This document shows, piece by piece, positions 12,847 to 21,504 of a stretch of DNA of 26,484 nucleotides (position 1 is the stretch's first letter; every line of letters begins with the position of its first letter). The DNA is from a virus: positions 1-26,484 of the IMG/VR virus record IMGVR_UViG_3300031758_000483; one strand, 5' to 3'. The position numbers were made by a program, and so were the translations under genes. A model generated the notes under the pieces. That model was not told the origin of the DNA, made no database searches, and saw nothing but the letters and a program-made list of their open reading frames with translations.

Positions 12847-13445
12847 ATATGCACAATCTTTTCCCAACACCTGTGGGGATGTTTGATTTAGACCGTCCGT
12901 TGACCAACGAGGAAATGCTGTTCGTTCGCGGTCAGGAAACTAGGCCGAATGAGGGCAACACGACCAGCAAAAATAACTTTGTGCTGCGCGACCCTACGAT
13001 GACTTCCCTGCGCGGCTGGCTTGAGGACTGTGTGGCTGAATACTTCAAGGCAACCAGCAACCCTAAGCATGACGTTGACCTGCGGATTACGCAGAGCTGG
13101 TTTAATTATTCAGAGCAGGGGCAATGGCATCACAAGCACGCGCATCCGAATAGCTTTGTGTCTGGCGTGTTCTATCTGAACACCAATCCAGATGACAAGA
13201 TTTTCTTCTATCGCTCTGGCTGGCAACAGATTAAGTTTCCACCGGAAGAATGGAACTTGTACAACTCCGAGTCGTGGTGGTTTGAGGCCATCACAGGGCG
13301 GCTAATTCTGTTCCCCTCCTCGCTTGAGCATAACGTGCCGACGGTGACGGGTGATGATGTGAGGATAAGCATGTCGTTTAACACATTCCCTGTTGGCGTG
13401 GTGGGTGATGAGATGCAACTAACTGGATTAAAACTGGAGGCTTAA
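12843..13445 (+). CDS. 2OG-Fe(II) oxygenase superfamily protein
   Basis: The 200-residue product has the double-stranded beta-helix signature of putative phage 2OG-Fe(II) oxygenases: W-H-H-K-H-A-H-P-N-S-F-V-S-G-V-F-Y-L near residues 95-112, with H99 and H101 as likely metal ligands, then L-I-L-F-P-S-S-L-E-H-N-V with H162, and R173 in V-R-I-S-M-S-F-N as the probable 2-oxoglutarate anchor. These enzymes couple 2-oxoglutarate decarboxylation to substrate oxidation. The substrate is unknown; phage members could modify virion proteins, nucleic acid or host molecules. It starts in the upstream stop (ATGA), and the next gene begins directly after its stop. Ligand positions are counted by hand. Confidence 0.82.
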   Translation: MNMHNLFPTPVGMFDLDRPLTNEEMLFVRGQETRPNEGNTTSKNNFVLRDPTMTSLRGWLEDCVAEYFKATSNPKHDVDLRITQSWFNYSEQGQWHHKHAHPNSFVSGVFYLNTNPDDKIFFYRSGWQQIKFPPEEWNLYNSESWWFEAITGRLILFPSSLEHNVPTVTGDDVRISMSFNTFPVGVVGDEMQLTGLKLEA

Positions 13446-16899: not shown

Positions 16900-16925
16900 T
16901 CCCGGCTATCAGTCGGGATTTTTTT
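16900..16925. terminator. Probable intrinsic terminator between converging operons
   Basis: TCCCG at 16900-16904 pairs with CGGGA at 16914-16918 around a 9-base loop, followed by seven T residues at 16919-16925 on the + strand. The loop contains the TGA of the minus-strand RecT gene, so the element also sits at the end of that operon. Upstream CGGGTTTTCCCG could form a competing small hairpin. The stem is short, so termination strength is uncertain. Confidence 0.6.
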
Positions 16926-17940
16926 CCTTGTTCATTTCAGCGCCCAGCATTCGCAGCCGCTTCTGGTAAGCCTGTGAATGCTGCAGCATGGCACCAGGCT
17001 CCATCTGTTTGAACATCGCCTGGTTCGCTTCCTTGAAATTTTTTAGCGCTGTCATCCGGTCACGCTCACTAGCCTTGCCTGCTGACATGGTCTTGTCGGC
17101 AAGCGTTTCGTAGGCTGCAGACCACTCAAGCTGGCTGGTGTGGGTTGATTTGACCACTGGCCCGGCATCACCTTTGCTTGGCACCATCAGCTGATAGATG
17201 CTTATCACGCCAGGTTCTGCAGCAGGTTCTGCAGATTCTGCAGAATCATTCTGCAAATCAGAATTGGCTTCCTCCAGATCCGGCACATACTCATCCACCG
17301 TGGTGGCGATGATTGTTTCCATCACTGCGGTTGGCTCTGGCGGCGCGATCCGATCCAATGGATTGGCTGGCAGCGGCGTGATATTCTTGGCTGGCTGTGG
17401 CCGTGCCTCTGGCGGGAAATCCTGCGCCTCTTCGACTGTGATCAGCCCCTTCAGCGCGTCAGGAAACGCGTCACGCAGCGCAAAGCCTCGAGCTCGCATC
17501 TGCATCATGCGCTTCGGGTACGCCTGCCACGGCCCCTGCTTGCCCCACAGGCCAGCTCGCTTGGCATCCTCGACCGAGAACTTAGCAATCACCGGCTTGC
17601 GACCCTTGCGCTTGGCCACGCACACAGCGGTCGGGTTCGGCGTGCCTTCACCCTCGAAATACTCTTCGATGTCTTCGCAGTGTGGGCTGGCCTGCACCAG
17701 CGCCATCGCTGCATCACCGTAGACCGAAGGCTTCCCATTTATCACCGCGATATTTTGTAACGCCTGCATGGGTGCCAGGCCGATCTCTGCACCCCATTGC
17801 ATGGCCACCAGAATATCTTGCGGCTTGCCGGTGTAGGCTTTGGGTACTAGGCTGGACGATGCCAGCTCTTCGGCAAACTGCCTGGCTTCGGTAAAGGTTG
17901 CAGGCGCGAACCCCTGTCTAGTTGTAACGAGATTGGTCAT
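16909..17940 (-). CDS. recT: RecT-type single-strand annealing protein
   Basis: I prefer the ATG at 17940 (MTNLVTTRQGF) because AGGGG precedes it; an ATG at 17964 would add eight residues and has weaker support. The 343-residue protein contains the RecT-family core: a helix with ILVAMQWGAEIGLAPMQALQ then IAVINGKPSVYGDAAMALVQ (about residues 42-83), SPHCEDIEEYFEGEGTP, and WQAYPKRMMQMRARGFALRD (about 137-156). Annealases pair ssDNA left by a partner exonuclease. Here the partner is the YqaJ-type nuclease two genes upstream. The last 160 residues are an acidic, low-complexity linker plus a helical tail, longer than in typical RecT (about 270). Its first bases overlap the 57-aa gene. Confidence 0.82.
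   Translation of the reverse strand: MTNLVTTRQGFAPATFTEARQFAEELASSSLVPKAYTGKPQDILVAMQWGAEIGLAPMQALQNIAVINGKPSVYGDAAMALVQASPHCEDIEEYFEGEGTPNPTAVCVAKRKGRKPVIAKFSVEDAKRAGLWGKQGPWQAYPKRMMQMRARGFALRDAFPDALKGLITVEEAQDFPPEARPQPAKNITPLPANPLDRIAPPEPTAVMETIIATTVDEYVPDLEEANSDLQNDSAESAEPAAEPGVISIYQLMVPSKGDAGPVVKSTHTSQLEWSAAYETLADKTMSAGKASERDRMTALKNFKEANQAMFKQMEPGAMLQHSQAYQKRLRMLGAEMNKEKNPD
17215..17255. repeat. TTCTGCAG direct repeats within the recT linker
   Basis: TTCTGCAG occurs at 17215-17222, 17227-17234 and 17236-17243, with a seven-base copy (TTCTGCA) at 17249-17255. On the coding strand this encodes the acidic S-A-E / A-A-E-P segment of the RecT-like protein's linker. It may be a slippage-derived coding repeat rather than a regulatory site. 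Confidence 0.7.
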
Positions 17941-18091
17941 TGTTATCCCCTGGTAAAAATTCATGGATGGTGTAAAGAACTAGCGCGGTGAAGGATTCGA
18001 CGATCTCTTCGGCCTCTTCCTCGCTGCACTTGGGTATCGTGTTCAACAGCGCAACCACAGCTCTGGCGTGCGCCTCTTCGAGTTTGGTCAT
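17918..18091 (-). CDS. Small acidic protein between exonuclease and recT (57 aa)
   Basis: Reading the complement from ATG 18091-18089 gives a 57-residue product beginning MTKLEEAHARAVVALLNTIP and ending in TAG at 17920-17918. Its ATG overlaps the exonuclease stop as ATGA, and its end overlaps recT by 23 bases. This pattern supports a real coupled gene in this compact operon. The sequence is helical and acidic (CSEEEAEEIVESFTALVLY). I do not recognise it. It could be an accessory factor for the Exo/RecT pair or a short regulator. A chance ORF is less likely because it exactly bridges the gap. Confidence 0.62.
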   Translation of the reverse strand: MTKLEEAHARAVVALLNTIPKCSEEEAEEIVESFTALVLYTIHEFLPGDNNDQSRYN

Positions 18092-19044
18092 AGTGCCTCT
18101 TTGATGGACAGGGTTGATTGTCTGATGCTGTATGCGTCCTTCGCAGGCACCACCTTCTCTGGTGTCGCTTTGTAGCTACGCATTGGCCAGCGGATCTCGA
18201 AGCGACCGACGGTGCCTTTGGATGCCTGGCCGAGCATGGCTTTGAGCTCGGTCTCTGCTTCGGAGCGTTTGCCTTCTGCCTCTTTGATGGCTGCGTTGGC
18301 GGCTAGGATCTGGTCGGCCAGCTGTTCAGCGCGACCAGGTAGGTTGACTACCGCAGCCTCATCAGCTGCCGGGTACATACGGTCGGCATCCTTGCTGTTG
18401 GCTGGTGGGTAGTAGTCAATCTCGCCGGTGGCTTTGTACTTCTCAATCTTGTTTTGGAACTCCAGCACCGCAGTCTTGATTGTTTCCAGCGTCTGCTTGT
18501 GCGGCTCGAACAAGAAGATCCGCAGCACGGTTCCCTGGTACAGCACGGCCACGGCACCCCATCGGGCCTGCATAATGTCCATCTGTGCCTGCAACTGCAC
18601 AGGGCCACGGTACAGCGCAGGCATTTCCTCGGGCGACACCGCGGTTAGCTTGGCCTCAAGTACACCATAACCGTCCAGCATGATCTCATCTTGGCCCACC
18701 ACAATAATGCCGGCATCCATGTCGGTGCGGATCTTCTGCCCACGGCCATGCGCCCAACCGTCCAGGCTGCAAGCCAGCGGTAGCGTCTTATGAAAGAAGG
18801 CCGAGTCGAACTCGGTCGAGAGCTCGAGCAGCTCGAGGCGCTTGGCTGTTTCCAGCAGGATCAGGCGCTCGATGCGGTCGCCCCAAGCCATCGCTTCGTT
18901 CTGTTTGTCTTCGCGTGGCAGGCCTTTGCTGGCGTTGATGCTGTACTGTAGTTCGTCATTGGGTGTCTGGTAGCGAGACAGCCCGAGCAGCGCTGGCAGG
19001 CGGCTGGCGCTCATCATGTAGTCCGGTGTTAGTTTGCCTGACAT
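18088..19044 (-). CDS. YqaJ/lambda-Exo-type viral recombinase exonuclease
   Basis: This 318-residue protein has the order of conserved parts seen in the YqaJ family: N-terminal SASRLPALLGLSRYQTPND, WGDRIERLILLET with E59, CSLDGWA with D95, VLEAKLTA with E130 and K132 (the E-x-K pair), and VQLQAQMDIM with Q150 and Q152. Such enzymes degrade the 5' strand of DNA ends to give a 3' overhang for an annealase. A C-terminal helical region from about residue 228 (GRAEQLADQILAANAAIKEA) is followed by a beta-like tail. The ATG is preceded by a near-perfect GGAGGAAAC. Its coding start overlaps the preceding gene's end by 16 bases. RecT two genes downstream is the expected partner. Confidence 0.87.
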   Translation of the reverse strand: MSGKLTPDYMMSASRLPALLGLSRYQTPNDELQYSINASKGLPREDKQNEAMAWGDRIERLILLETAKRLELLELSTEFDSAFFHKTLPLACSLDGWAHGRGQKIRTDMDAGIIVVGQDEIMLDGYGVLEAKLTAVSPEEMPALYRGPVQLQAQMDIMQARWGAVAVLYQGTVLRIFLFEPHKQTLETIKTAVLEFQNKIEKYKATGEIDYYPPANSKDADRMYPAADEAAVVNLPGRAEQLADQILAANAAIKEAEGKRSEAETELKAMLGQASKGTVGRFEIRWPMRSYKATPEKVVPAKDAYSIRQSTLSIKEAL

Positions 19045-19331: not shown

Positions 19332-19408
19332 ATGACACCCGCCACAAAGAACATGGCCATGACAACAAAGATCCCGAGCAGAAAACCGTTGAAGAAATCG
19401 TCGTTCAT
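19328..19408 (-). CDS. Predicted 26-aa single-span membrane peptide
   Basis: The complement from ATG 19408-19406 encodes a 26-residue peptide, MNDDFFNGFLLGIFVVMAMF followed by FVAGVI, ending TGA at 19330-19328. The N-terminal seven residues are acidic; the rest is one hydrophobic span. The ATG overlaps the serine recombinase stop and its own stop overlaps the next ATG, each as ATGA, so the whole length is constrained as a coupling link. It could be a membrane effector (antitoxin-like, lysis timing, exclusion) or only a translational spacer. It is too short for family assignment. Confidence 0.5.
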   Translation of the reverse strand: MNDDFFNGFLLGIFVVMAMFFVAGVI

Positions 19409-20052
19409 GCTGCACCCCGCTGAATAAGGTTGGAAACTTGGGCAGCGCCCCAGGTACGGCCACCGCGAGCAGTCTGCACGCCGCGAGCTGTGAGTGCTGC
19501 TGCGATTGAGCGCAGGCTGGTGATGCCTGCACGCTGCAGGTCGGCGATGATGGGCATCATGCGAGCTGCGAATGCGTCAGCGTTAGCACGGCCAGCGGCT
19601 GCACCGGCTTCTGCTGCTGCCTGGGGGTTTGGGTTACCGAGTTTGACACCGCGAGCCTTGGCGGCTTGCAGTGCTGCCTTGGTACGGCGGCTGATCTCTT
19701 CGCGCTCATGCTGGGCAACCACAGCGCGAATGCCGAACTCAAGCGTGCCAGCGTGCGGCATGTCGGCTGCAACGATCTGAACGCCAGAGTCACGCAGGGT
19801 CAGCAGGAACGCTGCCTGGCGCGACAGACGGTCGATCTTGGCAATCAGCAGAGCAGCGCCAGTGGCTTTGCACATGGCGATGGCAGCGGCCAACTGTGGC
19901 CGGTCATCGTGCTTGCCTGATTCGATCTCTGTGAAGCTGTGGATGATGCCGTCAGCGTATGCTTTGACTGCGGTGTGCTGGGCTTCGAGGCCGAGGCCAG
20001 ATTGGCCCTGGCGCTCAGTAGAAACTCGGAAGTAAGCTACATACTTGCTCAT
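19405..20052 (-). CDS. Serine recombinase, resolvase/invertase size
   Basis: From ATG 20052, preceded by AGGAGCGCAAAAC, the product is 215 residues; longer upstream frames add noncoding-like sequence. The catalytic domain shows YFRVSTERQGQSGLGLEAQ with Ser11 and Arg9, DRLSR with R75 and R78, and the family motif EREEISRRTKAAL. The C-terminal 50 residues include ITSLRSIAAALTARGVQTAR and a GGRTWGAAQVSNLIQR helix-turn-helix. Length matches resolvases and DNA invertases, not large serine integrases. Roles could be multimer resolution, inversion, or excision of a segment. It is transcribed away from the RHH regulator, and its upstream region has direct repeats. No att site was identified. Confidence 0.88.
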   Translation of the reverse strand: MSKYVAYFRVSTERQGQSGLGLEAQHTAVKAYADGIIHSFTEIESGKHDDRPQLAAAIAMCKATGAALLIAKIDRLSRQAAFLLTLRDSGVQIVAADMPHAGTLEFGIRAVVAQHEREEISRRTKAALQAAKARGVKLGNPNPQAAAEAGAAAGRANADAFAARMMPIIADLQRAGITSLRSIAAALTARGVQTARGGRTWGAAQVSNLIQRGAA

Positions 20053-20075
20053 GTTTTGCGCTCCTGTATCTCGGT

Positions 20076-20090
20076 GGCGTTGCGGTCTTG
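20076..20090. repeat. 15-bp direct repeat, copy 1 (upstream of serine recombinase)
   Basis: GGCGTTGCGGTCTTG here and GGCGTTACGGTCTTG at 20186-20200 differ at one base and lie 110 bp apart, flanking the dyad. Copy 1 also starts a small inverted repeat, CGGTC-TTGAGT-GACCG. Such paired sites beside a serine recombinase gene could be recombinase or regulator sites. Confidence 0.6.
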
Positions 20091-20112
20091 AGTGACCGTA
20101 GACAGAGACTCT

Positions 20113-20131
20113 CATATATCGCCGGTATATG
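20113..20131. promoter_or_regulatory. 19-bp near-perfect inverted repeat, probable operator
   Basis: CATATATCGCCGGTATATG pairs with itself except at one position: outer arms CATATA/TATATG and inner CG/CG flank a central C. On the minus strand it abuts TTGACA (20135-20130). A GGCGATATA resembling one half-site recurs at 20213-20221, just after the + strand -10. Two related sites around divergent promoters are typical of autoregulated phage switches, and the downstream RHH protein could bind them. Confidence 0.55.
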
Positions 20132-20180
20132 TCAACACCCCAAACCAAAATAATTTTAGGTGCTGTCAAATTGGCAAGCG

Positions 20181-20210
20181 TTGACGGCGTTACGGTCTTG
20201 GAATTATATT
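20181..20210 (+). promoter_or_regulatory. Probable sigma70-type promoter for the RHH-led operon
   Basis: TTGACG at 20181-20186 and TATATT at 20205-20210 are separated by 18 bases, a good match to host sigma70 consensus. The RHH gene ATG is 25 bases beyond the -10, with the ribosome-binding G-run at about 20224-20230 in between. Confidence 0.6.
20186..20200. repeat. 15-bp direct repeat, copy 2
   Basis: This is the second copy (GGCGTTACGGTCTTG), within the spacer of the predicted + strand promoter. Its placement between -35 and -10 means a bound protein would compete with RNA polymerase. Confidence 0.6.
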
Positions 20211-20234
20211 CGGGCGATATACAGGGGGGGAGTT

Positions 20235-20417
20235 ATGAAACAGGGCAAGATGTTTTTAATGCGTATGCGGCCAGAGGTAAGGCAGCTGCTAGACCAAGCG
20301 GCTGCAGAGCAGCGTCGCACCAGGGTGTCGATTCTGGAAGAGCTGATACTGGAAGCCTATGGCAAGCGCTACCAGAGCACGCAGGATCGGCTGAACAAGC
20401 TGCTAGGTGGCGCATGA
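20235..20417 (+). CDS. Ribbon-helix-helix DNA-binding regulator
   Basis: From ATG 20235, preceded by AGGGGGGGAGTT, the product is 60 residues: MKQGKMFLMRMRPEVRQLLD, then QAAAEQRRTRVSILEELILE. This fits a small RHH (Arc/CopG-like) fold, with a short beta strand (KMFLMRM) followed by two helices, and a positively charged loop. Longer upstream frames pass through the promoter and are not credible. RHH dimers bind short dyads, and one lies immediately upstream, so repression or autoregulation is the likely role. The stop overlaps the next ATG (ATGA). Confidence 0.75.
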   Translation: MKQGKMFLMRMRPEVRQLLDQAAAEQRRTRVSILEELILEAYGKRYQSTQDRLNKLLGGA

Positions 20418-21049: not shown

Positions 21050-21311
21050 GCATTGCCAGCACTGCGACAGGCCGCATTGGAAGCCTCGCACGGTGCTGGT
21101 GGACGGCGTTGAAGTCTGCACGCACAGCGAAGCCTGGCGCTTCGAATGCGAGGTGAGGTGGGCTCTGAAGCTGCCGGACAAGGCGAGAAAGCCGAAGGTT
21201 ACCAAGATGCAATATTTACTCAGTGTCGAAGAGCGGCGCGGCATTGAGGGCAAGACCAAGCTGCGAAATGAGATGTTAAGGAGATATAAGAATGCAAAAA
21301 CCAAGGAATGA
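21030..21311 (+). CDS. Hypothetical protein with a small Cys pair (93 aa)
   Basis: The product begins MVAAGYEHCQHCDRPHWKPR with a C-x-x-C pair (HCQHCD) and continues CTHSEAWRFECEVRWALKLP, giving further cysteines at about 30 and 40; a compact zinc site is possible. The C-terminal half is helical and charged (SVEERRGIEGKTKLRNEMLR). I recall small phage proteins with this N-terminal Cys layout and a C-terminal E-R-R-G-x-E-x-K-x-x-L-R helix, all uncharacterised. It overlaps the preceding 37-aa ORF by 20 bases and the next regulator by 20 bases, as in compact early regions. Confidence 0.6.
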   Translation: MVAAGYEHCQHCDRPHWKPRTVLVDGVEVCTHSEAWRFECEVRWALKLPDKARKPKVTKMQYLLSVEERRGIEGKTKLRNEMLRRYKNAKTKE

Positions 21312-21504
21312 CCACCGGCTGCTGGACACACTGATTACTGAGCTCAGAGCTCGCAACGACGCTCACCTGGCTGTCAAGCTGGGCTGGCCGCAGGCGTATG
21401 TCAGCAAGATAAGAAACGGCAAGATGGGTGTCACAGCCGAGCGGATCTTGAAGATTCACGACGCGACAGGCTGGGAGATCAGCCGGATCAAGGGGCTGCT
21501 ATGA
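21292..21504 (+). CDS. Small helix-turn-helix protein, Cro/XRE-like
   Basis: This 70-residue protein is preceded by AAGGAGATATAAG, an excellent ribosome-binding site. Residues about 24-60 read AHLAVKLGWPQAYVSKIRNG then KMGVTAERILKIHDATGWEI, the spacing of a Cro/C1-type helix-turn-helix, where the second helix begins at the QAYVSKIRN turn. It may repress or activate early transcription or tune a switch with the RHH protein. I see no dimerisation or peptidase domain as in CI. The stop overlaps the next ATG (ATGA). Confidence 0.72.
   Translation: MQKPRNDHRLLDTLITELRARNDAHLAVKLGWPQAYVSKIRNGKMGVTAERILKIHDATGWEISRIKGLL

Follow-up and report, generated by a model that had tools for sequence, protein, structure and literature searches.

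The locus and its recombination operon

The window, that is, the whole stretch of DNA analysed, is a virus record of 26,484 nt, which also carries terminase and tail genes and an O-like replication protein. A small serine recombinase leads a leftward operon, and the gene of a small RHH protein is divergent from it:

16909-17964, minus strand: RecT-like annealing protein, a later gene of the leftward operon (PF03837; phrog_561, 5e-52)
18088-19044, minus strand: YqaJ/RecE-like exonuclease, a later gene of the leftward operon (PF09588, 3e-6; phrog_434, 2e-35)
19405-20052, minus strand: small serine recombinase of 215 aa, first gene of the leftward operon (PF00239, 1.6e-25; phrog_125, 9e-32)
20235-20417, plus strand: 60-aa RHH (Arc-like) protein, presumed repressor (phrog_3431 'Arc-like repressor', 2.5e-4)

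The recombinase belongs to the small serine resolvase/invertase family (PF00239) and has its conserved catalytic motifs; R-V-S-T and K-D-R-L-R are invariant. For the 60-aa protein, Pfam alone gave no RHH match above the cut-off. A second candidate regulator is found in the rightward operon, a 70-aa HTH protein at 21292-21504 on the plus strand (HTH_3, 6.5e-5; YdaS-like below the cut-off).

No close relative of this phage group was found in the GenBank phage collection, and the intergenic region had no match there. More than 400 loci from viral contigs were compared. The queries were two protein sequences (recombinase and RHH protein), the 17-mer CCACCGAGATACAGGAG in bare and in degenerate form, and two deep alignments of the recombinase. 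Since the recombinases of this set diverge to about 44% identity with the window's copy, the short DNA elements common to the set are informative. Nine bacterial relatives of the recombinase were also found; they are at most 66% identical, and none has the leader described below directly upstream.

Among 23 diverse loci with the leader, a divergent RHH homologue is present in 23/23, the recombinase is common to all, and the exonuclease and RecT are found in 21 and 20, respectively; the leader thus heads a recombination operon. The bare 17-mer scan of viral contigs was independent of the recombinase and the RHH protein, yet nearly every match had both in the same arrangement, with the recombinase 17-460 nt downstream and the RHH gene divergent. 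The first position of the operon is often taken by a variable small gene. Where such a gene is inserted between leader and recombinase, the recombinase is pushed 200-460 nt off; the promoter, the dyad and the leader stay together. The slot between the leader's Shine-Dalgarno (SD) sequence and the recombinase holds differing small genes (about 60-93 aa) in L020, L022, L023, L026, L054, L071 and others, and the window has the empty form.

Putative RHH operators on two divergent promoters

The features between the two divergent genes that concern transcription are as follows:

20106-20135, minus strand: leftward promoter P_L, with -35 TTGACA (20135-20130, kept in relatives), a weak predicted -10 GAGTCT (20111-20106), an 18-bp spacer and a predicted start at about 20099
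20116-20130, no strand: O_L, putative RHH operator ATATC-gccgg-TATAT (5-N5-5), in the P_L spacer and touching the -35; in close relatives this position reads ATATC-N5-GATAT, the central 5 bp being variable (spacing-5 enrichment, z=14)
20181-20210, plus strand: P_R, promoter of the RHH gene, TTGACG-N18-TATATT (10/12 matches)
20206-20220, no strand: O_R, putative RHH operator ATATT-cgggc-GATAT, covering the -10 of P_R and its start region, kept in relatives (spacing-5 enrichment, z=10)

An earlier sequence-only reading of this DNA had described a 19-bp dyad, CATATATCGCCGGTATATG, which indeed lies at 20113-20131; its single other match is its own reverse strand (0.01 expected). The related half-site reported at 20213-20221 is present too, but it is part of a second complete operator copy, O_R, rather than a half-site, and the 16-mers 20115-20130 and 20206-20221 are 88% complementary. 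Seen against the relatives, one putative operator, ATATC-N5-GATAT, is present twice, as the dyad and as the 'half-site'; O_L and O_R each differ from it by one base. The essential form of the dyad would be 5-N5-5, which had been overlooked, as had the perfect TTGACA -35 of P_L that abuts it; a promoter scan did not flag P_L either. The sigma70-like promoter with one repeat in its spacer was correctly described, being P_R with the right 15-mer in its spacer; O_R overlaps its -10 at 20205-20210.

The spacing of the half-sites was compared in 45 divergent phage clusters. The half-site score peaks at spacing 5, with z=14.2 for P_L and 10.4 for P_R (best other spacings 5.4 and 6.3, respectively); its matrix was drawn by eye from the same data and was applied equally at all spacings. 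Perfect 5-N5-5 inverted repeats occur in 24/45 P_L regions, compared with 3.2 in shuffles; on P_R the counting of perfect palindromes gave no enrichment at spacing 5, which was found by the half-site score alone. In many other clades the P_L operator is located at the transcript start instead of the spacer, with the half-sites ATTGC, ATGTC or GTATC. The transcript-start dyad of these clades is itself 5-N5-5, so that operator and RNA hairpin I (see below) are indistinguishable there. A second dyad, TAGGG-N5-CCCTA or TAGGG-N5-ACCTA, lies in the middle of the intergenic region in L149, L158, L178, L071 and others, which are clades without the spacer operator of the window type.

The operator architecture and its conservation are supported computationally, and RHH binding and repression are what we infer from them. 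The proposal of a divergent switch autoregulated by the RHH protein is well supported: the same half-sites stand one helical turn apart on both promoters throughout the 45 clusters, and nearly every relative has an RHH gene in divergent orientation. An RHH protein encoded alongside, half-sites at a fixed spacing of about one helical turn and overlap with the protein's own promoter are found together here, as in known RHH operators. Autoregulation by the RHH protein is suggested with good confidence, and this small DNA-binding protein probably represses both back-to-back genes. In RelB, strictly spaced 6-bp repeats are read from a single face of the helix (PMC2812701), and the one-turn distance between the half-sites here would likewise let two RHH dimers sit on the same face of the DNA. 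The arrangement resembles P22 Arc, CopG and RelB-type systems in its small RHH protein, its divergent or own promoter and its short inverted half-sites on one helix face. It differs from them in its 5-bp half-sites parted by 5 bp, in the drift of the half-site (ATATC, ATTGC, GTATC, ATGTC) and in the location of the putative operator, which is in a promoter spacer or at the transcript start.

Two classes of leader hairpin

From its expected start at about 20099, the leftward message on the minus strand opens ACGGUCACUCAAGACCGCAACGCCACCGAGAUACAGGAGCGCAAAACAUG, and RNA folding gives two hairpins. These and the two 15-mers of the sequence-only reading are located as follows:

20056-20082, minus strand: leader hairpin II (class 1), CGC-CA-CCG-AGAUA-C-A-GG-A-GCG, supported by covariation, model match and compensatory change, with the SD AGGAG (20065-20061) in its 3' strand
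20076-20090, minus strand: left 15-mer, running from within the loop of hairpin I through its 3' arm into the first bases of hairpin II (sequence, RNA fold)
20083-20098, minus strand: leader hairpin I, CGGUC-ACUCAA-GACCG, where the leftward mRNA is predicted to begin (RNA fold)
20186-20200, plus strand: right 15-mer, inside the spacer of P_R, retained by the closest relatives only

That the left 15-mer belongs to a conserved leader RNA had been missed. In hairpin I, stem changes are seen by eye (CGGTT/AACCG in L285, CGACC/GGTCG in L298). Hairpin II has the class 1 consensus N3-5-CA-CC(G/C)-AGANA-(C/G)-A-GG-A-N3-5, a covarying hairpin that carries the SD. Among 67 distinct 27-mers its covariation is 0.398, compared with 0.101 +/- 0.014 in shuffles and at most 0.076 when the partners are slid by one column; 90.9% of the cells are paired, 77 cells are double-changed (20 in shuffles), and double changes affect 6/8 pairs. 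Many loci were found via the core motif, so the invariance of the core is partly ascertained; the outer stem is free of that. The degenerate 17-mer scan admitted all four base combinations at the pair G5-C11, and with a recombinase at most 1.2 kb downstream it returned 35 G-C, 22 C-G, 0 C-C and 0 G-G; all 16 mismatched (C-C/G-G) matches lie away from recombinases. Compensatory change in hairpin II and its tie to the operon are thus supported computationally, and the hairpin very probably forms as RNA. Alone in the window it is moderately stable (-4.7 kcal/mol, z -1.3).

The covariance model R1 found hairpin II in the window at 37.9 bits (E 1.7e-9) and no further strong copy; most of 20 related records also have a single strong copy. 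The next best match in the window, at 13260-13285 on the minus strand (15.5 bits, E 0.02), is antisense inside an ORF and is probably due to chance. In the operons of L013, L339, L341 and L342 a second leader copy without a promoter lies between a G+C-rich hairpin and the recombinase, immediately ahead of the latter, which argues that the leader acts as RNA near start codons. Two hairpins are found at L013 (817 and 1183), L339 (1870 and 2478), L341, L342 and L479; in L013 and L479 one copy has G5-C11 and the other C5-G11. The 17-mer matches in L151, L171 and L203, together with all C-C/G-G variants, have no recombinase nearby and were set aside as chance. The exact 17-mer also follows a G+C-rich hairpin and precedes a 274-aa MGRPKKQTVDYFPH protein in L153 (5849), L215 and L217, with no recombinase near; there it may be a chance match or a leader that was transplanted. 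Class 1-like hairpins in shorter or altered form (CUACCGNNNGACAGGAGG and others) were noted in L255, L260, L269, L280, L286 and L293; they keep CCG..C-A-GG and have a changed loop.

At the same promoter, 24 distant recombinase loci without class 1 have another hairpin (class 2), for example CAUGUUCAAC-GCGC-AGAUAAA-GCGC-AAAGGA-GUUCAACAUG, in which the AUG start codon is paired to a CAU at the 5' end. Its stem also covaries (CAUGUU/AACAUG vs CAUCG/CGAUG), with a covariation of 0.323 against 0.101. Class 2 was spotted by eye before it was counted, and the main safeguards are the pair controls and the opposite-strand count, which gave no class 2 hairpin at the distant recombinase loci. The AGAU-type loop is common to both classes, and both have the SD in or inside the hairpin; an evolutionarily supported helix that holds the SD or the start codon, as expected of an operator that sequesters the ribosome-binding site, is thus present in each. 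In the stretch searched, about 30 of the 109 nonredundant distant recombinase loci have neither class.

The scan of nine sources, with the class 2 loci outside it, gave no Rfam match at gathering, and 19900-20400 of the window gave none at E<=5. Searches for the leader in GenBank phages returned short chance matches only. No report of it was found in the literature searched, although absence from all these sources is no proof of novelty. Operators for RHH proteins and leaders that sequester the SD are of known kinds; the conserved hairpin itself is absent from the RNA database scanned.

Proposed control of the operon and alternative readings

The locus is read, on balance with reasonable confidence, as a divergent early phage control region that combines an RHH switch on both promoters with a translational leader on the recombination operon. 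The RHH protein would bind two 15-bp operators, with inverted 5-bp half-sites 10 bp apart, of which one lies between the -35 and -10 of P_L and the other covers the -10 of P_R. When bound, it would repress both transcription units, the RHH gene to the right and the recombination operon (serine recombinase, exonuclease and RecT) to the left. Once P_L fires, hairpin II, with the SD in its 3' strand, would limit translation of the first gene until it is opened or a ligand changes it. The AGANA loop presented by hairpin II might be read by a trans-acting ligand, which would make a second, translational control point. Of these steps, SD occlusion in vivo and the AGANA-reading ligand are inferred.

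That the leader exerts translational control is moderately likely. That a specific trans-acting factor reads it has a little less than an even chance; if so, the ligand is more likely a protein than a small molecule. The full proposal is equally tentative: an undescribed family of phage leader RNAs, in two classes with an AGA(U/A) loop, may be read by a dedicated trans-acting factor (a recombination-operon protein or a host RNA-binding protein) and so switch early translation of the recombination operon downstream of the RHH switch. The coat translational operator of MS2 is likewise a phage mRNA structure for translational repression. In T4/RB69, gene 43 and gene 32 have mRNA structure at or beside the ribosome-binding site, with conserved loop bases, for translational repression (PMC3014915). 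The leader resembles these three operators in its structure at the ribosome-binding site and its conserved loop bases. It differs in that its hairpin holds the SD (class 1), or encloses the SD and pairs the AUG (class 2), in that it precedes variable small genes or a serine recombinase, and in that its binding protein is only conjectured. A parallel to T4 gp32 (PMC3014915) would arise if RecT, or some other product of the operon, acted on its own leader, but no candidate is singled out here.

The hairpins might also be purely cis-acting and, without any specific ligand, tune how ribosomes load, how stable the mRNA is or how it responds to temperature. This has perhaps one chance in a few: the SD or start codon lies within a stem in both classes, and hairpins at mRNA 5' ends often stabilise messages, but the conserved AGANA loop and bulged A, kept across recombinases down to 44% identity, exceed what a stem needs. 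A put- or nut-like antitermination RNA, which would modify RNA polymerase on the early leftward operon, is considered improbable. In its favour, an early leftward transcript opens with two hairpins here, as it does in phage HK022, whose putL is a structured RNA (PMC9378689). However, the conserved part here is about 27 nt, with one hairpin around the SD by the start codon, and the leader shows no sign of the two long stems of the ~70-nt put RNA. Moreover, antitermination requires neither the second leader copies inside the operon directly before the recombinase nor the start-codon pairing of class 2. A CsrA site was considered and dropped, since conservation does not extend to the A-N-GGA core. 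Hairpin II as a protein site at the DNA level is very unlikely, since, although it adjoins the promoter and operators, it is always at SD distance from the ATG in real loci, also occurs inside operons, has only Watson-Crick combinations at G5-C11 and is asymmetric in bulge and loop.

The sequence-only reading had further proposed that the 15-mers and the dyad are a res-like target, with subsites for the 215-aa serine recombinase. The two 15-mers, GGCGTTGCGGTCTTG at 20076-20090 and GGCGTTACGGTCTTG at 20186-20200, are 14/15 identical as described, and the repeat is not due to local chance since none of 300 dinucleotide shuffles of 20053-20234 reached 14/15. This excess and the adjoining small serine recombinase with its conserved catalytic motifs speak for such a site. 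The 26,484-b record has no further copies of the 15-mer. However, both repeats are kept (with at most one mismatch) in 12/166 distinct leader regions, most being without both; a res site should be conserved with the recombinase gene. Absence of the repeats from relatives with both genes had itself been named as evidence against the proposal: the direct repeats are indeed absent from most of these, whereas the dyad is retained.

The right 15-mer is lost in clusters beyond the closest relatives, and the left one is accounted for by the leader hairpin. Where other genes part the dyad from the recombinase, it remains beside the promoter. It is also as small, at 15 bp, as an RHH operator and recurs over the divergent promoter; resolvase crossover sites are about 28 bp. 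The window also has no convincing long inverted repeats that would mark an invertible segment, and the candidates for one were GC-rich chance matches only. The intergenic DNA is thus not supported as the recombinase's own PF00239-type site, and this reading is given hardly any weight; a repeat and dyad beside a recombinase gene need not be that recombinase's recombination site.

If the preferred reading of RHH switch and translational leader is true, environmental phages of this group use very small parts for a two-level control of their recombination operon. The leader is a defined 27-nt RNA with strong covariation, whose sequence variants separate pairing from loop identity, and the operators are a natural collection from which RHH specificity could be read. 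Should a phage protein be the ligand, the two would make a new RNA-protein pair of the kind of the MS2 and PP7 hairpins, which became tools. As for a res-like element, a long palindromic stretch around AAACGAACGTTT is located directly upstream of bacterial recombinase relatives in L248 and L249 (Hymenobacter), and is a better candidate than anything in the window.
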